A stretch of 25,587 nt of DNA from a virus: IMG/VR virus record IMGVR_UViG_3300037459_000029, positions 1 to 25,587 of that record; one strand, written 5' to 3'. Below the pieces are notes generated by a model. It had not been told where the DNA came from and searched no databases. It saw nothing but the letters and a program-made list of their open reading frames with translations. Numbering within the stretch: the first letter of the stretch is position 1; each line of letters opens with the position of its first letter. This document shows, piece after piece, positions 8,134-18,956 of the stretch. The position numbers and the translations under genes are program-made.

Positions 8134-8893
8134 ACTACCACTGAAGATGTTGTACCTAGACATCGAGACCTCGCCCCTAGAGGGCACGTTTTGGAACCTG
8201 TGGCCCAAGTACATACCTCTGAACCAACTGAAGGAACCAACATACATGCTATGTTGGGGTGCTCAGTGGCATGGGGAGCGAGAGTTACTCTTCGAGTCTG
8301 TCTTAGATGGACGAGAGCAGATGGTGCGGAAGATGCACGCTCTGCTAGATGAGGCGGATGCCGTGTGCCATTACAATGGCAAGGCGTTCGATGTCAAGCA
8401 CCTGAACAGGGAGTTCGCACTGTATGGGATGGGACCACCGAGTCACTTTGCACAGGTGGACCTACTGGGTGAGGTGCGGAAGAACTTCAAGCTACCGTCC
8501 AACAAGCTAGACTATGTGTGCCGGTACTTCGGTCTCGGCGGCAAGGTGAAGCACCAAGGCATCGAGCTATGGTATGGCTGTATGGAGGGGAACGAGCATG
8601 ATTGGAAGATCATGGAACGGTACAACAAGATGGACGTGAAGCTACTGCCCAAGTTGTACAAGTTCATGCGACCTTGGATCAAGGACCACCCCAACGTGGC
8701 CCTATGGATCAAGGACCCAACCAAGCCTACGTGTCCCAAGTGTGCCAGCACCAAGCTGCACAAGAAGGGGACACAGCACAACACCAAGAAGGCATCGTAC
8801 GATAGGTACACATGCCTGTCATGTGGTGAGCCGTGCCGTAGTAGGTTCCAGTCAGTGAAGACTAGCCCCAACGTACTGGTGAGGTCACAGTAA
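8120..8893 (+). CDS. DEDDy-type 3'-5' exonuclease (RNase H-like) with C-terminal zinc ribbon
   Basis: 257 residues. The RNase H-like nuclease shows motif I 'LYLDIETSP' (D14, E16), motif II 'HYNGKAFDVKHL' (D91), and motif III Y168-x3-D172 in 'YNKMDVKLL', the DEDDy signature. A C-terminal zinc ribbon has C205-x2-C208 and C232-x2-C235. It is separate from the polymerase's own proofreading domain, so the phage carries two DEDD nucleases. Phage proteins with this nuclease plus ribbon are generally annotated as ribonuclease H-like; whether the substrate is DNA or RNA is not visible here. TAATG coupling joins it to the next small gene. Confidence 0.85.
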   Translation: MPRVKLPLKMLYLDIETSPLEGTFWNLWPKYIPLNQLKEPTYMLCWGAQWHGERELLFESVLDGREQMVRKMHALLDEADAVCHYNGKAFDVKHLNREFALYGMGPPSHFAQVDLLGEVRKNFKLPSNKLDYVCRYFGLGGKVKHQGIELWYGCMEGNEHDWKIMERYNKMDVKLLPKLYKFMRPWIKDHPNVALWIKDPTKPTCPKCASTKLHKKGTQHNTKKASYDRYTCLSCGEPCRSRFQSVKTSPNVLVRSQ

Positions 8894-10705: not shown

Positions 10706-11012
10706 GCAGAAGAACCAGATGATAGACGGAGCTATGGTGATAGTCGCCCTAGCTCTGATCTGTACGATGGTACTAGGTCAGTGCGCCCCGGCATATGCCG
10801 AGGAAGAAGAGGAACCGGAGGTCCACTACGTGGTCACAATGATCACATGGTATGGTGAGACCAAGCCGTTCAAACAGAAGTTCTCGTTCCAATGGCAGAC
10901 AGCCTGCGAGACCTTCCGAATTACCACGACAGAGAAGATGGAAGCGTACAAAATAGACCCGAAGTTCGGGTTCATTATGAGTGACGAGTGCAAAAAGGAG
11001 TTACAGAAATGA
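10674..11012 (+). CDS. Secreted or membrane-tethered acidic protein of unknown function
   Basis: 112 residues from TTG at 10674, with GGAGGT about 9 bases upstream. A basic N-region (RKSTRQK) and hydrophobic core (about 19-37) end in APAYA at 38-42, a good signal peptidase I site before a run of five glutamates. The mature part (about 70 residues) has '[15 protein letters not shown]' and two cysteines (in TACETF and DECKKE), which could form a disulfide in the periplasm. It overlaps the start of the secreted collagen-repeat gene, so both may act together in the envelope. I do not recognise the family. An uncleaved membrane anchor is the alternative. Confidence 0.6.
10995..11000 (+). promoter_or_regulatory. 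Ribosome binding site setting the start of the collagen-repeat gene
   Basis: AAGGAG lies 8 bases before ATG 11009. Starting there gives a classic signal peptide at the N-terminus, whereas the in-frame start at 10988 would precede the box. Confidence 0.6.
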
Positions 11013-11572
11013 AAGTAGTAATGGTGAAAGTAATACTTGCAATGCTGACACTGTTGGGGTTAGTGAACAGTGCGATGGCCGGTGGGCCAGATAACGATGA
11101 GCCTTGCTCACACCCCAACTTTGTCACCCACGAGTGCCTTGATTCTTTGGCCCTCGACGGGGCTGACGGCATCGACGGAGTCGATGGTGTGGATGGAGCC
11201 GACGGCATGTCCGGCCTTCGAGGACCTGTCGGTCCTACAGGTGCGACGGGCGCTATAGGTCCGGAAGGACCTGCCGGGCAGCCCGGTCCCCGAGGTCCTG
11301 CTGGACCGAGGGGAGTGGACGGCACGGTGTCGTCACAGTGGTACAACGACATACGAGGTCACTTTGCTGCCACAGCAGCGGCCCAAGTCCATCTACCACA
11401 AGATAAGAACAGCCGCCTGACAATAGGCACAGCTCGCGTCATGGGACGCACTGGTATTGGGGTTGGCTACGCCTATCGAGCATCTGATGAGGGCAGGACG
11501 GCCTTTACGCTAGCTCTGGGCCGTTCAAACGGCGCTAAGGTTGTCCAACTTGGCATTAGTGTGGAGTTCTGA
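11009..11572 (+). CDS. Secreted collagen-like repeat protein with YadA-like C-terminal beta-barrel anchor
   Basis: 187 residues. Signal peptide 1-24 (hydrophobic core 3-19, cleavage after AMA). The mature N-terminus has two cysteines (C33, C43). Residues 51-105 are uninterrupted Gly-X-Y triplets, about 18 of them, first Asp-rich (GVDGVDGAD) then Pro-rich. Residues about 112-187 look like a trimeric autotransporter (YadA) anchor: a helix with AATAAA, then four amphipathic strands ('[11 protein letters not shown]', '[11 protein letters not shown]', 'AFTLALGRS', '[10 protein letters not shown]') ending in a C-terminal Phe, the outer-membrane insertion signature. The likely product is a trimeric stalk on the host outer membrane. 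Collagen repeats in phages are normally in tail fibres, but those lack signal peptides. Anchor assignment is from pattern, not alignment. Confidence 0.75.
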
Positions 11573-11573
11573 T

Positions 11574-12041
11574 ATGACCACGATTGTAGTCAATAGGAAG
11601 GAAGGATACATAGCCGCCGATAGGCTGGCTACGTCCAATGACTGCGAAGTAGCTACTCGCTACCCAAAGATACGCACCGTCACGCTCAGTGACGGTGTGC
11701 ATCTGCTGGCCTCTAGTGGAATGGAGTCCAGCGCGCAGATATTTGAAGAATGGTATGAGTCCGAATCAAGCCACATGCTCATACCACTGGAAAGCATGGA
11801 GGATATGGATAAGTTCACAACTGTGATCCTGACCCCTAAGAATAAGGTCTTTGTAGCTGACCACTTCTACCGGCCCTACCGTATCTACGCCCCGATCTAT
11901 GGCACTGGTACTGGTGCGCCCTTCGCATGGGCGGTACTTGAGGCAACCGGGGACATTGATCTGGCAATGAAGACAGCCATTAAGATGGACCCGAACAGTG
12001 GCTTCGGCTACGACATAGTACGCCTCAGTGACTATAACTAA
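11574..12041 (+). CDS. HslV / proteasome beta-like Ntn hydrolase
   Basis: 155 residues from ATG 11574, one base after the previous stop. The product begins M-T-T-I-V, so removal of Met would expose Thr as the N-terminal nucleophile, exactly as in HslV and proteasome beta subunits. 'GYIAADRLAT' supplies the conserved Asp (D16) and K32 in 'RYPKI' can serve as the catalytic Lys. A 'HLLASSGM' strand and 'IYGTGTGAPFA' are also typical. It is a little shorter than HslV (about 175). No HslU-type unfoldase is in the window, so it may work alone, with host HslU, or as a decoy. Proteolysis is inferred from the family. Confidence 0.75.
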   Translation: MTTIVVNRKEGYIAADRLATSNDCEVATRYPKIRTVTLSDGVHLLASSGMESSAQIFEEWYESESSHMLIPLESMEDMDKFTTVILTPKNKVFVADHFYRPYRIYAPIYGTGTGAPFAWAVLEATGDIDLAMKTAIKMDPNSGFGYDIVRLSDYN

Positions 12042-12465
12042 GGTTCCAAAACACAGCCCTGTCTGGAATGACGCGGCCTTCAAGGAACAGGTTGCTAAGT
12101 ACGGAGCGAAGTGGCTAGCCGGACACAAAAACGCCCCAATCAAGGGGCGTCAGGCTGATATGATTATACTAGATGATCTAGTTGATGTAGCTCACGAGGC
12201 CATTAGTCACAGCTCTCTAAGGATTCGTCATGGGCACGAATCACGCCTTCCAAAACACGTACATGGGATTTCAAATTCACATCATTGGAAGCGATTTTTC
12301 CAAGGAGATTCCCACCGTCGATCCGCTTTATCGCTAACTGTTCGGATACGGAAACAGGTTGAAGAACAAAGTCCCGAAGAGGAACCTCCATCGGACATTC
12401 TAAAGGTATCGTATGGCTACAGGCTGCTACGACCAGAAGCAATGGTAAAAATAGTATCCTCTTAA
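12028..12465 (+). CDS. Hypothetical protein, 3' half antisense to the o-spanin gene
   Basis: 145 residues from GTG 12028, overlapping the end of the Ntn hydrolase gene by 14 bases. Residues 1-58 look like a genuine small protein ('WNDAAFKEQVAKYGAKWLAGHK', 'RQADMIILDDLVD'). From about residue 59 the frame runs antisense to the o-spanin gene and becomes His/Arg/Ser-rich, as shadow frames do. Either the true product is the whole frame with a 263-base tail-to-tail overlap, or the 3' part is a by-product of a lost stop codon. The leftward terminator hairpin lies inside its coding sequence. The function is unknown. Confidence 0.45.
   Translation: MTITKVPKHSPVWNDAAFKEQVAKYGAKWLAGHKNAPIKGRQADMIILDDLVDVAHEAISHSSLRIRHGHESRLPKHVHGISNSHHWKRFFQGDSHRRSALSLTVRIRKQVEEQSPEEEPPSDILKVSYGYRLLRPEAMVKIVSS
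12126..12150 (-). terminator. Intrinsic terminator of the leftward late operon
   Basis: On the minus strand the sequence reads ACGCCCC, a six-base TTGATT loop, GGGGCGT, then TTTTG: a 7-bp GC-rich perfect stem followed by a U-run. It lies 53 bases downstream of the o-spanin stop. In the plus direction the hairpin is followed by CAGGCTG, not Ts, so it should act only on leftward transcripts. Confidence 0.75.
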
Positions 12466-12472
12466 AAGTCAT
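12203..12472 (-). CDS. o-spanin (Rz1-like outer-membrane lipoprotein)
   Basis: 89 residues. A short basic start (MTFKR), a hydrophobic stretch and the lipobox VAAC (C18) predict a signal peptidase II lipoprotein with a periplasmic tail of about 71 residues. The ATG sits 11 bases inside the 3' end of the preceding i-spanin gene, in another frame, which is the usual layout of phage spanin pairs. With the i-spanin it would fuse inner and outer membranes in the last step of Gram-negative lysis. The tail contains two further Cys that could cross-link dimers. Confidence 0.8.
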   Translation of the reverse strand: MTFKRILFLPLLLVVAACSHTIPLECPMEVPLRDFVLQPVSVSEQLAIKRIDGGNLLGKIASNDVNLKSHVRVLEGVIRAHDESLESCD

Positions 12473-12749
12473 CTGTCTTTTCCCCGAGGCTGTCTATGCC
12501 GCTGAAGTCGGAATCTGGTTTCTCGATCTCCCGAGCGATGTCCGCCGACCGGCTGACAAGTCTCTCTCTTTCTTTCTTGATCAGTTTCTTTTTCGTTTGC
12601 TCGGCTTGATGCCGAGCTTTCAACGTATCCGATACTCTCTCTAGTCTTTCTGTCTTGTTCTTGAGATACTTCAATCTCAGGAGCAAGGCAGCAATCGCTA
12701 CGATGGCGGTTCCCACCGCCGCTAGCTTAGCCTGTAGTCCCAGCAACAC
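12462..12749 (-). CDS. i-spanin (Rz-like inner-membrane subunit)
   Basis: 95 residues starting at GTG, with a GGAGG box upstream inside the holin gene. A single N-terminal membrane helix (about 8-25) precedes a highly charged coiled-coil region rich in Lys, Arg, Glu and Gln (26-75). Type and size fit an i-spanin: N-in, C-out with a long periplasmic coil. It is preceded by the holin and overlapped by a lipoprotein gene, which is strong context. The sequence itself is low complexity, so identity rests on topology and order. Confidence 0.75.
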   Translation of the reverse strand: MLLGLQAKLAAVGTAIVAIAALLLRLKYLKNKTERLERVSDTLKARHQAEQTKKKLIKKERERLVSRSADIAREIEKPDSDFSGIDSLGEKTDDF

Positions 12750-12978
12750 CTTCGATTCCCTCCGTAGTAACCATTCTCAGTCCTATATTCAGGACACCTA
12801 CCCCAACCAATACCCACGGCATGACGCTCGCACTAATGACGGGCGTCAGGACGGGCAGTAATTGTTCAAGGCCGGTGAGCATCGCCGCCACTATTGTGGC
12901 GACGTTAGCCCACACGGTCTTGGACTTATACCAAGGCTTAGCCTTTGGCTTCAGCTTCTTTAACTTCAGCTTCGGCAC
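12727..12978 (-). CDS. Holin
   Basis: 83 residues from GTG, with AGGAAG 6 bases upstream. A very basic N-terminus (PKLKLKKLKPKAKPWYKSKT) is followed by two hydrophobic helices, about 22-42 and 47-68, with 'VWANVATIVAAML' and 'VLVGVGVLNIGLRMVTTEGI'. The YKSKT-W start and LN-x2-LR-x-VT end are typical of a common phage holin family. It would form lesions in the inner membrane and release or activate the endolysin. It lies immediately before the spanins, completing a lysis cassette, but the endolysin is encoded about 6 kb upstream in the same operon. Confidence 0.75.
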   Translation of the reverse strand: MPKLKLKKLKPKAKPWYKSKTVWANVATIVAAMLTGLEQLLPVLTPVISASVMPWVLVGVGVLNIGLRMVTTEGIEGVAGTTG

Positions 12979-13196: not shown

Positions 13197-13568
13197 TTAT
13201 CCCGCGTCGATTTTACCTTCAATGAAGGTCTTCACTTGTGCCACTGTCCGTGGCGTAAAACCATGCTCCGTCCGGAGTAGGTTAATCTCACTTACTATCC
13301 CCTCTATTAACGCATTGAAAGCAGGCTCACTGAGCCTGATCTTTTCTGCGTCCTTATGGGCTGTGCCTTGGGCGTCAGCCTTAGCTGCGTCTATGTCGTC
13401 TTGGTTGACGATGTAGTCGGCCAGTGCTGTGTCCAGTGCTTCCTGAGTTACGTCCGGAACCTCTAGTTCCGAGGTAGTCGGGTCGTACATGATGAGCTTG
13501 CGATCCCCGCCACACATTTCTGTTATCTTGACCCAATCCTGTGAGCCTGTTACTACTACCTTTGCCAT
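13197..13568 (-). CDS. Hypothetical late protein downstream of tail fibre
   Basis: 123 residues. Its ATG overlaps the tail fibre stop (TAATG). The N-terminal part is beta ('KVVVTGSQDWVKI', 'RKLIMYDP'), the middle carries an acidic Ala/Asp helix, and the C-terminal half is helical ('EPAFNALIEGIVSEINLLR'). Small genes directly after fibre genes often encode fibre assembly or chaperone proteins, and translational coupling suggests partnership with the fibre. No diagnostic motif is seen, so this remains inference. Confidence 0.65.
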   Translation of the reverse strand: MAKVVVTGSQDWVKITEMCGGDRKLIMYDPTTSELEVPDVTQEALDTALADYIVNQDDIDAAKADAQGTAHKDAEKIRLSEPAFNALIEGIVSEINLLRTEHGFTPRTVAQVKTFIEGKIDAG

Positions 13569-16500
13569 TACTGTACCCTCTCGACGGTGAATAGCGTTCT
13601 GGTTGCGAAGTAATCGTCGCTGCCAGATATCTCTACCTTCTCTAGCTGCAAGGTGACGAAGTCACTTGCGGTCAGGTTCACATAGAACGTCTGGCTCAAG
13701 TGATTCTGCATGAAGTCGCCCGGAATGGACCCATCACTGAACACACCACATAGTGCGTCCGAGCCGGGGATTCCTACACCACTGTCATTTATCCTCACCC
13801 TTGCCTCGGCGGTTATGGTGCTCTCGTTCACCGTGTCTGTCTCAATGTCCACACCGTAGGTAATCTTGTACGTACCAGTCACACCTACTATGATGTTATC
13901 CGTATTAGTGGCAAGATCGTGGTTTACTACAGCGTCGTCTGTCTCTACATCCGTGGTGTCTAGTGTAACATCCACGAAGGCAGTTGTCAACTCTAGGTCC
14001 GTAGTGCGCCGCGCTTGTGCGACGTCGTTAACTATCACTACAGGTGCAGCCGGTATGTCCGACTGATATGCGAAGGTCTCAGCACCTTGTTCCAAACGGC
14101 CCGTAGTGTGATCGAATAGAATATTCGTGGCTCCAACTACTGCCAGTATGACATTCCCGTCAGGTTCCGCGACTGTTCCTGCGCCACCTGTGATTGTGAC
14201 ATCACCACCAGCACCATCAGAAGCAGCAGTAACACCAGCACCGCCAGTGATTTCTACACCGCCTCCATCGCCGCCATTAGCACCGCCGAGGCCGCCAATT
14301 ACCCTAGCTAGTCCGCCAACGCCAGCACCATTGTTACCTTCACCGCCGATCAGCGACGCTATACCACCGTCACCGGCTCCATTTGCGCTGCCTGCTTGCA
14401 CGGTAGCAGTACCACCATCGCCACTGCCTCCAGTGCCGTCGCCTGCTAGGGCTAAGAAGTCACCGCCATCATCGCCTGAACCATTAGCGTTACCGCAAGT
14501 GAGCGTAATGTCACCACCCTCTGCACCACCGCCTGCTCCATTAGTGGCTTCGATGACAACACTACCACCCTTGGTAGAGCTGCCGCCACTAGCGCCTGCT
14601 CTTATCGTGAGAGTACCGCCGTTACCACTTCCGTCCGTCCCAGCGATAACGCTGAGGTCTAGTGTGCTAGTATCTAGGTTCTCAATGTTGAACCCATTAG
14701 TATCAAGAGTAGCACCAAGCTGTGGTGTCACGTCCTCGACTATGTTAGCAAGGCCCGCAGCGGGTATCTCGGAAAGGAACGCTAAGGTTTCTGCGCCCTG
14801 CTTGATACGTCCACTGAGTCCCGTAAAGTTGACATCCGTAGTGGCTCCCAGACTCTCAAAGTTATAGTCCGTCGCATCATGGAACTGCCTTATTCTATTA
14901 GCATCGGTACTGTCGTATACAGTTAACCTCAATCCATCCCGCACACCAATTTCATTGGTATTTAGATCAATGATGAACTTAGAAACGCTTGATTCGGAGA
15001 AGTGCCACGCTGTATTACCAACGACGGAGTTCAGAATCATGTTCTGAGTATTGTACGAGATTGCTACATCACGACTTGAGCCGAAGGTGACAGCATCGTT
15101 GTCGAGCATGTCAATGTCGGAGCCGTTGCTATCCAGATCACCGCCTAGCTGGGGTGTTAGGTCATCAACGACATTCGCAAGCCCTGCTGCGGACCCGCCA
15201 ATCTGTAGAACGAATAGCGTCCGGACGTTAGAACCGTGTAGTGTGCCACTTGCCTCTACCGTACCCGTAAGAGTAAACCAGCCCGTATTATCTGTTGCAG
15301 GAGCTGTGACGTTAAAGACAATGAACGCAGCACTATCAGCTTCGCTTTGAATATAGAGCCTATCACCTGTGGTGATAATGCCCAAGATATTGGAGATATC
15401 GACACCATTCGATGTGACATCATCAATAAACACTTCTGTGACTGACGCTGGAGTAGCGCTATTGTAGCGGAACAGCCCCGAACCGGGGTCTGAGGCTACA
15501 GTGGAGGTACTGAATCTGTATTGGCCACTGAGTAGGCCGCCACCAACAACTGGGTTTACGAATGATAGAGCACCAGCTCCATCGGTCGCTATTACCTGAT
15601 CCGCACCACCGTCACCAGTAGGGAACGTGTAGTCGTTAAGCCTGAAGCTTGTGCCGACAAGCACAGCGACTTCGGACATGCCTTGGAGAGCAAATGTACC
15701 TACACCCGCTCCCGCCTGAGTCAGACCAGTGGCTAGCAGAGATGTAGCTACTCCACCACCTACGGTCGGATCGAATACGCTAACAAACTGGCCGCCTACT
15801 GAGGGTATAACTGCTATACCTCTATCAAACTGGTAGCTACTGGTTGAGCCAGTAAAGTCTACCGAGTTGGAGTTGTTGAAGGAGAAGTTGTACTTTAGGC
15901 CATCATGTCCTTGCGACAAACCATCCGTTGTACCGGGATCAAATGTGGATAAGACCGCACCATCCCAGAGGAAGTTATCGTTGCCTTCTATTCCACTAGG
16001 TCCGGTGAATACCGCGACCTGATTGTCTGCCCCAGTGCCTACCGTAACTCCACCGCCCGGAGCATCGTTATAAAGCGTGTCCCAAGACGTAGTATCACGA
16101 CCTAGGAAGATGCCAACCTCTCCCGCTGTAATGGTTATGGCTGTGTCAACGCCTGCCCCGATGTCATCACCGACTGCGGGGAATAGCTGAAGATCGTTGA
16201 CTCCGTTGTTGATGACAACGAGTCGATCACCGGCTTTAACCGGGGCGGCAGTGACTGAATCTCCTGCTATCGCTACTGTTGCGATTTCATTGTACGAACT
16301 GAGTAATGCGAGACCTAATGCCTGTGTCTGCGAGGGATCAGCAGTAAGTCCAGTGTGGTTCTCGTTCGTCTGTATGATGTGGCTGGCTAGTTCCCTGATA
16401 CGTACGCCTGCAACACCACCTGCGATAAGCGTCATGTTATCGACAAAGCCTATATCATAGCCAAGGCCATTATCGGTGTCTACGTTATTGACGACAAGCG

Positions 16501-17443
16501 AAGGTATATTAAACAGTGTTTGGACGTTGACTATGCCGCCACCACCACCAATCCATGTCTTAAACTGGCCTCCGAAGAAGCTGAATTGAGGGGAGCTACC
16601 AAGCGTGACGTCTATACTGTTAGCTTGTGCTTGAAAGAAGCCCGTATTACCGTCGTCAAACGCTAGTGCTGGTTTCGTCTGGGAGAGAGATATCACTCCC
16701 GGCATGACGATGAACTGATCATCACCTCCATCTTCTACGGCTCGCCAAATTTCCACGCCGCCTGCGATTCCCGAGAATTCGTCATTACCACCACTACCTA
16801 GACCAGTGTTGGAATCTCCCTGATTAGGCAGAACGGTAGGAACATCGTCCTGTGCTGTTGTGTTCTCAAGTGACGGGCCTCCACTAAACTCCGAGAAGAA
16901 TCTCCCGGTACTGAAGTTCCACGCCTCACTTCCTCCACCCATCCAGACAACCTGATTGGACCCGTTCCATACGAAGCCTGTATCAAGGTCGTTGAGGGAG
17001 GTAAGTCCGGGTAGTGACCCTGACCCCGGAGAAACTGCGAACTGATTAGTTGTACCTTCAATCGCCCTAGCGATTTCGACTCCGTTTGCTGCAAACCCTA
17101 CCTCACCGACCGCGTTAAGGAACATTCCTGCGCCAGTGTCGTTGAGGAAGCTGTAAGTAGGTGCGACAGCCGAGCCATCAGGCCCGCGTAGTGGGAATGC
17201 AAGTCCGCCAAACGCCGCCTGTTCAAGCTGGAATACAGTGACCGCATCTTGTGGGTCTATCCCGTCTTCCAGATTGATAACGCGATTCGAGTTCATATCG
17301 AAGTCGGCTTCCATCTGGTTAGGAGTAGTCCCATCTCTCGATAGTGTATTCTCTATTGCGGCTTCGATGAGGGCGTTGTTGGCATTGTACGTGGTGATTA
17401 ACCCAAAGCCTGCCCCAATATCCGCTAGTGTTAGTTTAGCCAT
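13568..17443 (-). CDS. Large tail fibre protein 1
   Basis: 1,291 residues. The first about 75 residues (MAKLTLADIGAGFG, 'NNALIEAAIENTLSRDG', 'DMNSNRVINL') form the virion-attachment domain also found in fibre 2. The shaft has repeated DTG-/NTG- and GVEIxRA modules (about 100-300) and two 'VxDxTPQLG' elements. A glycine-rich array of about 17-residue repeats lies at about 930-1095. The C-terminal about 150 residues are beta-rich and jelly-roll-like ('TYKITYGVDIETD', 'FYVNLTASDFVTLQLEKVEI'), a plausible receptor-binding head. The protein probably is a trimeric fibre that recognises the host surface. Start ATG overlaps the upstream TAA. Confidence 0.9.
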   Translation of the reverse strand: MAKLTLADIGAGFGLITTYNANNALIEAAIENTLSRDGTTPNQMEADFDMNSNRVINLEDGIDPQDAVTVFQLEQAAFGGLAFPLRGPDGSAVAPTYSFLNDTGAGMFLNAVGEVGFAANGVEIARAIEGTTNQFAVSPGSGSLPGLTSLNDLDTGFVWNGSNQVVWMGGGSEAWNFSTGRFFSEFSGGPSLENTTAQDDVPTVLPNQGDSNTGLGSGGNDEFSGIAGGVEIWRAVEDGGDDQFIVMPGVISLSQTKPALAFDDGNTGFFQAQANSIDVTLGSSPQFSFFGGQFKTWIGGGGGIVNVQTLFNIPSLVVNNVDTDNGLGYDIGFVDNMTLIAGGVAGVRIRELASHIIQTNENHTGLTADPSQTQALGLALLSSYNEIATVAIAGDSVTAAPVKAGDRLVVINNGVNDLQLFPAVGDDIGAGVDTAITITAGEVGIFLGRDTTSWDTLYNDAPGGGVTVGTGADNQVAVFTGPSGIEGNDNFLWDGAVLSTFDPGTTDGLSQGHDGLKYNFSFNNSNSVDFTGSTSSYQFDRGIAVIPSVGGQFVSVFDPTVGGGVATSLLATGLTQAGAGVGTFALQGMSEVAVLVGTSFRLNDYTFPTGDGGADQVIATDGAGALSFVNPVVGGGLLSGQYRFSTSTVASDPGSGLFRYNSATPASVTEVFIDDVTSNGVDISNILGIITTGDRLYIQSEADSAAFIVFNVTAPATDNTGWFTLTGTVEASGTLHGSNVRTLFVLQIGGSAAGLANVVDDLTPQLGGDLDSNGSDIDMLDNDAVTFGSSRDVAISYNTQNMILNSVVGNTAWHFSESSVSKFIIDLNTNEIGVRDGLRLTVYDSTDANRIRQFHDATDYNFESLGATTDVNFTGLSGRIKQGAETLAFLSEIPAAGLANIVEDVTPQLGATLDTNGFNIENLDTSTLDLSVIAGTDGSGNGGTLTIRAGASGGSSTKGGSVVIEATNGAGGGAEGGDITLTCGNANGSGDDGGDFLALAGDGTGGSGDGGTATVQAGSANGAGDGGIASLIGGEGNNGAGVGGLARVIGGLGGANGGDGGGVEITGGAGVTAASDGAGGDVTITGGAGTVAEPDGNVILAVVGATNILFDHTTGRLEQGAETFAYQSDIPAAPVVIVNDVAQARRTTDLELTTAFVDVTLDTTDVETDDAVVNHDLATNTDNIIVGVTGTYKITYGVDIETDTVNESTITAEARVRINDSGVGIPGSDALCGVFSDGSIPGDFMQNHLSQTFYVNLTASDFVTLQLEKVEISGSDDYFATRTLFTVERVQ
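14155..14625 (-). repeat. Nine glycine-rich repeats of about 17 residues within tail fibre 1
   Basis: The encoded repeats follow the pattern G-[GDTS]-x-hydrophobic-x-hydrophobic-x-x-G-x-x-x-G-x-x-[D]-G. Most units are 17 residues; one is 16 and one 19. Examples of cores are TLTIRAG, DITLTCG, TATVQAG, VEITGG and DVTITGG. The regular period of one strand plus a glycine turn suggests a beta-solenoid or triple-stranded shaft. Confidence 0.8.
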
Positions 17444-17709
17444 TAGTCCTCTCGTCCTGTTTCTATTCGTTGTACGGCCTGAAGGATCAACTTCACGTCG
17501 GCCTTAACGGTCGTCATGTCTTCTTTCACATGCTTGACCTCATTCTCGACCGTGATCAACCGATCATGGTCCTCCTTTGCTGTCTGTTGTGCCTGCTCTA
17601 GTGTCTCTACGTCTGACGCTAGTGCGCCTACGAAGATTCCCCCGCCCACTGCGATAGTCGCTAGTGATATGGCGGTGGCTACACTAATGTATGATGCCTG
17701 CTTGTTCAT
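17443..17709 (-). CDS. Single-helix membrane protein with coiled coil, between the two tail fibres
   Basis: 88 residues from the ATG overlapping the fibre 2 stop (TAATG). One hydrophobic helix at about 10-31 ('SVATAISLATIAVGGGIFVGAL') is followed by heptad-like repeats ('VETLEQAQQTAKEDHDRLITV', then 'VKHVKEDMTTVKADVKLIL'). Topology resembles an i-spanin or a membrane-bound accessory, but a better spanin pair exists downstream. It might act in lysis timing or as a fibre-associated factor. The gene position between two fibre genes is unusual. An alternative start six residues upstream is less likely. Confidence 0.65.
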   Translation of the reverse strand: MNKQASYISVATAISLATIAVGGGIFVGALASDVETLEQAQQTAKEDHDRLITVENEVKHVKEDMTTVKADVKLILQAVQRIETGRED

Positions 17710-18956
17710 TACCCTAGAACCTCGCACGAGAAGGCCGATGTTCCGCCGGTAATCCGGAGATCGCCAAAGTCTGAACCCTGTGACATCGTGGTCAATTCAA
17801 AGTAGTCGCCCTGAGATACGTTAATGGGCACAGTTGTGACCACATGGGCCATACGCCCGTCGCCATTGGCATCTGCAAATCCACCAAAGAATAGGCCGTG
17901 GACCATAGGGAAGTAGTCACCCATACCGGGGTCAACAGTCCCAAAGTGCAGTCCATTCTTGATTATCCGCATGAACCATGCACCGGAACCGTTCTGATGG
18001 AATAGGTCCCATTGTATTTGGCCAGTAAGTCGTACTATCGACACTCCTGCTGGAATCGTAATGCGGCTGATGTTGACTGAGTTGCTATGGAACTGCGTTC
18101 CAAAATCTGCGGCTCCTGTATCAATGGTTTCGGATGTAAACGGAATGGGTAGCTCACCCGGATTGATCCCGCCAGTTCCATCCCATGACAAGTCTACCGT
18201 TGTGTGGCCCGATGTGTGGTCTGTGGCCCGTGTTAGGACACAGCCACTAAAGGTTCCAGCTACGCCTACTACAGTCGCCAAGGTCGCTGGGGTTACCGCG
18301 CGGACTGCGTCTACGCCATCATTAACCTCGGTCTGAGTAGCTAGCTCGATGACGCCCGTTCTACCCTCGGTCGCTGTTCGCCCTGCCAATCGCAAGGGCG
18401 TAATGATTCGGTCGTTGTCCGTCCCTGTGTTTGTTTCCGGCTGGCTAGCAATCTCGGCTATACCTAGTGACGTCTGCGTTGCCTGCTGTATCTGTGGTAG
18501 ATTGGCCAGCTTGAGTGGCGTAACGAACCGGAGGTCGTCGCTCCCCGCATCAGTCTCTACTTGCGTCGCTATCTCTGCGATGCCGAGCGTTATCTCGGTC
18601 GCCTGAATTGGGAGAACGAGTGCTACTGGGAGGAACTGTATGCCATCCCACTGTAGGATGTCATCTAGCTGTATGCCGGTGAGGTCCACGTCGATTAAGG
18701 CGTCGATGGACACCGGCCCTGCTATAGAGGCTTGGATAAGCTGCGCTATAGTGACCGCGTCCTGTTGATCTATACCGTCTGCGAGGTTATTGATGCGGAA
18801 ACTGTTCATGTCGAACTGAGCCTCCATCTGGTTCGGCTGTGTGCCGTCCCTAGAGAGGGTGTTCTCAATCGCCGCTTCGATAAGCGCACTATTAGAGTTG
18901 ACTGTTACGTCAAAGCCCGGTGCTGAGGTGATGTCATCTAGTATTAGTTTTGCCAT
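17709..18956 (-). CDS. Tail fibre protein 2
   Basis: 415 residues. Residues 1-75 are a close paralogue of the fibre 1 attachment domain ('NSALIEAAIENTLSRDG', 'NQMEAQFDMNSFRINNL', 'DGIDQQDAVT'). Three shaft repeats follow, each of the type 'GIAEIATQxE...G.D..R.VTP..L', a common tail-fibre repeat. The C-terminal about 170 residues are beta-rich ('ISRITIPAGVSIVRLTGQIQW', 'VPINVSQGDYFELTTMS'), resembling receptor-binding jelly rolls. Sharing an anchor with fibre 1 implies both attach to the same virion site or to alternative copies. Confidence 0.88.
   Translation of the reverse strand: MAKLILDDITSAPGFDVTVNSNSALIEAAIENTLSRDGTQPNQMEAQFDMNSFRINNLADGIDQQDAVTIAQLIQASIAGPVSIDALIDVDLTGIQLDDILQWDGIQFLPVALVLPIQATEITLGIAEIATQVETDAGSDDLRFVTPLKLANLPQIQQATQTSLGIAEIASQPETNTGTDNDRIITPLRLAGRTATEGRTGVIELATQTEVNDGVDAVRAVTPATLATVVGVAGTFSGCVLTRATDHTSGHTTVDLSWDGTGGINPGELPIPFTSETIDTGAADFGTQFHSNSVNISRITIPAGVSIVRLTGQIQWDLFHQNGSGAWFMRIIKNGLHFGTVDPGMGDYFPMVHGLFFGGFADANGDGRMAHVVTTVPINVSQGDYFELTTMSQGSDFGDLRITGGTSAFSCEVLG
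18275..18600 (-). repeat. Three tail-fibre shaft repeats in fibre 2
   Basis: Three consecutive units of about 33-36 residues carry the pattern [LT]G-[IV]-[AI]-E-[IL]-A-[TS]-Q-x-E-[TV]...G-x-D-x-x-R-x-[VI]-TP-x-x-L-A, separated by short linkers. This pattern is widespread in phage fibre shafts. Confidence 0.75.

Follow-up and report, generated by a model that had tools for sequence, protein, structure and literature searches.

The open reading frame at 11009-11572 (+ strand, ATG to TGA) of the window, by which we mean the whole 25,587-nucleotide stretch of IMG/VR record IMGVR_UViG_3300037459_000029 analysed here, encodes a 187-residue product that is, with high confidence, an outer-membrane fibre held by a YadA-type anchor. 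The overall explanation that we consider probable is that this product is a very small type Vc (trimeric autotransporter-like) protein on the surface of the infected cell. A preliminary description of the DNA had proposed the layout of a trimeric autotransporter, not of a tail fibre, and this proposal is backed by the profile, family and fold evidence presented below. The features are collected in Table 1.

Table 1. Features of the anchor gene, its neighbours in the window and the transmembrane-segment ORFs that follow the long-tailed genes of its relatives (coordinates are those of the window unless a record is named).
Feature	Coordinates	Strand	Evidence or remark
Upstream ORF, predicted exported, about 112 aa	10674-11012	+	stop overlaps anchor-gene start; possible operon partner
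Gene for the collagen-stalk YadA-anchor protein	11009-11572	+	ORF call; homologues in IMG/VR scans
Sec signal peptide, residues 1-24 (AMA/GG)	11009-11080	+	read from sequence
Mature N-terminal tip, residues 25-50, with the motif C33-x-H-P-x-F-x4-C43	11081-11158	+	family conservation; dN/dS 0.07
Collagen-like stalk, 19 Gly-X-Y triplets, residues 51-107	11159-11329	+	Pfam PF01391, E 1.5e-9
Short helix into the barrel, residues 108-127	11330-11389	+	AlphaFold helix 2-17 of segment
LPQ motif and four-strand YadA-type anchor, residues 128-187, ending VEF	11390-11569	+	PF03895; fold match to YadA/Hia/AtaA anchors
Downstream ORF, HslV-family-like peptidase	11574-12041	+	1 nt past anchor-gene stop; phrog_1040, E 4.2e-24
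Spanin- and holin-like genes	12203-12978	-	convergent with the anchor-gene strand
TM-segment ORFs after long-tailed genes	L027:4765-5070; L029:3793-4086; L031:8495-8779; L032 about 8579-8871		
TM-segment ORFs after long-tailed genes, continued	L033:8624-8935; L037:8486-8818; L040:6537-6800; L151:5654-5965		

A Shine-Dalgarno-like AAGGAG lies a few bases 5' of the anchor-gene start, within the preceding ORF, and the start itself overlaps the stop of that ORF in the ATGA at 11009-11012. The Sec signal peptide that had been described is present, with a basic N-terminus, a hydrophobic core and an AXA site; signal peptides in the window and in the relatives were judged by reading the sequence, without a dedicated predictor. 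The collagen run also stood, with the count revised from about 18 Gly-X-Y triplets to 19 without interruption, compared with a longest run of 8 in 20,000 residue shuffles. The protein matches the Pfam Collagen family, and an NCBIfam search returned only partial matches to collagen adhesins, far under the cut-offs. Such a collagen stalk would imply a trimer.

Scans of IMG/VR gave eleven relatives, near-identical copies being counted once, all of them on contigs of uncultured phages (P0002 in L002, and one each in L027, L028, L029, L031, L032, L033, L036, L037, L040 and L151). Common to all members of the family are a signal peptide, opening with the same basic-hydrophobic-AXA pattern, collagen repeats and the anchor. 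Both cysteines of the tip (C33 and C43) are invariant in the 10 aligned members, and HPxF is found in 8 of them; the stalk ranges from 12 to 23 triplets across the family. Between the window gene and its L002 homologue the dN/dS was 0.20 for the whole gene, 0.25 for the collagen, 0.13 for the anchor and 0.07 for the tip. These values point to strong purifying selection on anchor and tip, which are the parts kept; the length of the stalk varies. A tblastn search with P0001 against the INPHARED phages gave no match, and two scans of genome contigs found no bacterial relative. Most other loci returned by the scans for relatives were set aside as collagen-repeat phage proteins; this anchor was absent from the end of every one of them whose C-terminus was read.

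The case for the anchor rests on profiles and on predicted structure. In the HMM search that had been suggested as a check, YadA_anchor (PF03895) aligned with the window protein over nearly its entire length (profile positions 3-60 of 60; 18.3 bits, E 0.0026) under the Pfam gathering cut-off of 22.7 bits, and the L028 relative, at 31.6 bits by hmmscan, lay above it. Nine of the 10 aligned family members matched this profile (E<0.1), and the L031, L032 and L040 records exceeded the cut-off in whole-record searches. A YadA match was thus obtained, against the refuting outcome named in the preliminary description, although the window protein by itself stays under the threshold. When AlphaFold was run on the family alignment, the 80-residue anchor segment was predicted as a helix followed by a four-strand meander (strands E28-37, 40-52, 57-66 and 69-78; mean pLDDT 90.1); the full-length model was poor (pLDDT 60) and was set aside, and it shows the same four strands. 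In Foldseek the four highest-ranking solved structures were all TAA anchors, those of AtaA and Hia coming first; YadA ranked sixth. In VIA-align the five best-scoring chains were TAA anchors of YadA, Hia and AtaA (Z 8.4-9.6, rmsd 1.8-1.9 over 74-78 residues), the next chain, an unrelated one, reaching Z 5.6. A profile-profile comparison of the family anchor with the anchors of isolated phages gave E 9.1e-5 and a probability of 59. Searches of PDB sequences lent the anchor no support: the anchor-only family profile had no match, and the best 60 matches of the full-length family profile were nearly all collagen or collagen-like chains. We consider homology and fold of the YadA type highly probable, as judged by profile matches and a predicted structure. 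YadA, Hia and AtaA, whose anchors share 12-22% sequence identity with that of the window, are, unlike the window protein, bacterial adhesins that possess both a head and a long stalk.

Four amphipathic strands ending in Phe had also been described. The strands, as predicted, and the final Phe were borne out, but amphipathic alternation is strong only in strands 2 and 4 of the window anchor, and in the window sequence alone it did not exceed that of shuffled strands (p 0.20; p 0.025 for the family). The C-terminus of the window protein, QLGISVEF, fits the BAM signal zeta-x-G-x-x-Phi-x-Phi and ends the chain in the window and in L002; the remaining relatives run on past an FEF motif. The fold was predicted for a single chain, and three such chains would make up the 12-strand trimeric barrel.

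Phage proteins combining a signal peptide with a YadA anchor are already known, from phiEco32, FSL SP-076, vB_EamP-S6 and phiR1-RT. The 'agglutinating adhesin' phi32_119 of Escherichia phage phiEco32 (Kuravirus; ABY52920) shares with the window protein the signal peptide, a two-cysteine tip before the collagen, an array of Gly-X-Y triplets (here 22), a helix and a C-terminal YadA anchor, in 226 aa counted from an internal Met. It differs in having a tip (CGVGQSTNGCG) that lacks HPxF, and a canonical PF03895 anchor (69.1 bits) that is about 18% identical to the window anchor; it belongs to phrog_26246, whereas the window anchor falls in no PHROG. The phi32_119 protein has matches in 84 records, of which few span its full length, and the phiEco32-type coliphages with this counterpart include SkaterBoy_Bas90. 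In Salmonella, Switt et al. 2013 described yadA homologues in virulent phages, off the tail genes and next to a dUTPase, with no function reported (PMC3728262). The homologue of FSL SP-076/SP-058, from a virulent phage with the gene beside the dUTPase and far from the tail genes, has the signal peptide, collagen and YadA anchor of the window protein, but is 320 aa long and has additional sequence at its N-terminus as well as a coiled-coil-like segment ahead of the anchor. The 'adhesin' gp046 of vB_EamP-S6 (Erwinia, Schitoviridae) resembles the window protein in its signal peptide, YadA anchor (52.2 bits) and early-side location, but has a helical stalk without collagen; the adhesin genes of S6 and FSL SP-076 are both placed with early nucleotide-metabolism genes. 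The phiR1-RT protein consists of little more than a signal peptide and a YadA anchor. N4-like phages also carry PF03895 (PMC10654107), and a BFVD search returned many YadA-anchor proteins in phage isolates. By its sequence, then, the window family is a divergent member of an already known kind, outside the PHROG groups.

Two side observations concern these counterparts. In the T4-like Yersinia phages phiR1-RT (L066:1498-1866, an ORF of 122 aa) and vB_YenM_TG1 (L065) the YadA anchor is nearly passenger-free. Signal-peptide YadA-anchor phage proteins are filed as tail in phrog_26246 and phrog_17426, which spreads a doubtful annotation.

The order on the + strand of the window is replication genes (the DNA polymerase being assigned by PHROG), exported ORF, anchor gene and HslV-like ORF, and the anchor gene is located near the end of this replication-gene strand, apart from the fibre genes at 13568-18956, which are convergent with it on the - strand. 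Judged only by gene content and order, the + strand would be expressed early or in the middle of infection. The exported ORF, for which Pfam, PHROGs and NCBIfam gave no family match, is coupled in translation to the window's anchor gene and also neighbours that gene in L002 (L002:7678-8004). The two versions of this small exported protein have two conserved cysteines. Where the window has the HslV-like ORF, L002 has one judged by eye to be SPFH/prohibitin-like (L002:8540-9064), both closely following the anchor gene; gene order in L002 is otherwise as in the window. Since spanin-like genes are present, the host should be Gram-negative, as an outer-membrane protein needs. Elsewhere in the window, 13568-17443 (- strand) encodes a fibre-like protein of 1291 aa that has long Gly-rich repeats and, at its C-terminus, weakly matches BclA (E 0.002).

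These surroundings bear on whether the product, taken here for a membrane protein, is instead a fibre of the virion or the tip of one. Collagen repeats do match many phage tail families, PHROGs class the phiEco32-type proteins as 'tail', and a YadA-domain protein is found in cyanophage virions, with collagen and YadA-related domains in virion proteins of other phages (PMC9146016). However, the signal peptide, whose absence is a hallmark of tail fibres along with an N-terminal virion-attachment domain, is present in the window protein and in all other members, the anchor fold is there, the gene lies outside the tail module, and the PHROG matches listed for the window protein are centred on its collagen repeats, a PHROGs search with the anchor alone giving none. 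We consider a virion fibre very unlikely, and set it aside on account of the signal peptide and the gene position.

For a protein of the infected-cell surface and not of the virion, the following course may be envisaged. Exported by Sec, as its signal peptide suggests, the protein would insert through its YadA-type anchor into the outer membrane of the infected cell, where three copies would form the 12-strand barrel; the collagen stalk would pass through the pore and wind into a rod of about 16 nm (19 triplets x 3 x 0.286 nm), which would carry the conserved tip, with its two cysteines, at the cell exterior. Our leading guess, offered tentatively and somewhat short of an even chance, is that this change of the surface may block adsorption of sister or related phages, and of released progeny, to the doomed cell or its debris. 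The analogy is with Llp of T5, a periplasmic superinfection-exclusion lipoprotein that jams FhuA (PMC9586334): the proposed purpose is alike, an outer-membrane phage protein that halts adsorption, but the proteins are unrelated and the likeness is functional only. Lysis genes beside the genes of some relatives would also suit a role at the time of lysis.

Trimeric autotransporters (TAAs) are typically adhesins, and as an adhesin the protein could make infected cells clump, or tether progeny and cells, and so promote aggregation and spread in biofilm or particles. The prophage Eib proteins, which are TAAs, weakly match the phiEco32 protein, in keeping with such a role. The window protein, however, lacks a head domain, its mature passenger comprising a 26-residue tip and the stalk, and the nearly passenger-free phiR1-RT type makes adhesion unlikely as a shared role. 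On balance we regard aggregation as an unlikely function.

The newest feature of the family is found in the relatives. Eight of them extend past the barrel in a proline-rich, charged tail of tens to more than 100 residues, and each of these long-tailed genes (8/8) is directly followed or overlapped by a small ORF (about 87-110 aa) whose product has a single transmembrane segment at the N-terminus and then a charged tail. This partner ORF accompanies none of the four members without a long tail (window, L002, L028 and L036), giving P 0.002 if the members were independent; they are related, and so the P value overstates their independence. That tail and partner may be coiled coils is a judgement by eye. 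Four of the eight long-tailed relatives (L027, L029, L032 and L040) have the gene within the lysis cassette or next to it; the genes of L028/L036, L033/L151 and L037 are situated elsewhere. As a separate observation, the lipoproteins in the Rz1 position at L029:2475-2903 and L027:3478-3909, which overlap an Rz-like ORF, also carry a hydrophobic C-terminal segment, as if they were spanins anchored twice, by a lipid and by a transmembrane segment.

Gene position in those four relatives and the association of tail with partner could point to an envelope or lysis factor, in which the barrel and its periplasmic side, with the inner-membrane helical partner, bridge or destabilise the envelope around lysis, and the collagen merely blocks or signals outside. 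We judge this improbable: the window and L002 lack tail and partner and yet have separate spanin-like genes, and L028/L036, L033/L151 and L037 carry the gene away from the cassette. Moreover, the partner may equally assist in export instead of forming a bridge, because SadB, an inner-membrane helper encoded with the trimeric autotransporter SadA, assists SadA (PMC3953254). A wider arrangement, which we find doubtful, would be an envelope-spanning system for surface remodelling or lysis, made of an outside collagen fibre, a YadA-type outer-membrane barrel, a periplasmic tail and a co-encoded inner-membrane helical partner, of which the window would encode a stripped-down version that perhaps works with the upstream exported protein.

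Returning to the surface-anchored fibre, virulent phages of several families carry trimeric fibres with a signal peptide and an outer-membrane anchor, mostly annotated 'tail' or 'virulence'. Because a divergent family keeps the layout and is under purifying selection, we argue that these fibres have a real function during infection. Why a lytic phage should decorate a doomed cell is a question that can be tested directly in laboratory E. coli, since phiEco32-type coliphages carry the closest counterpart.
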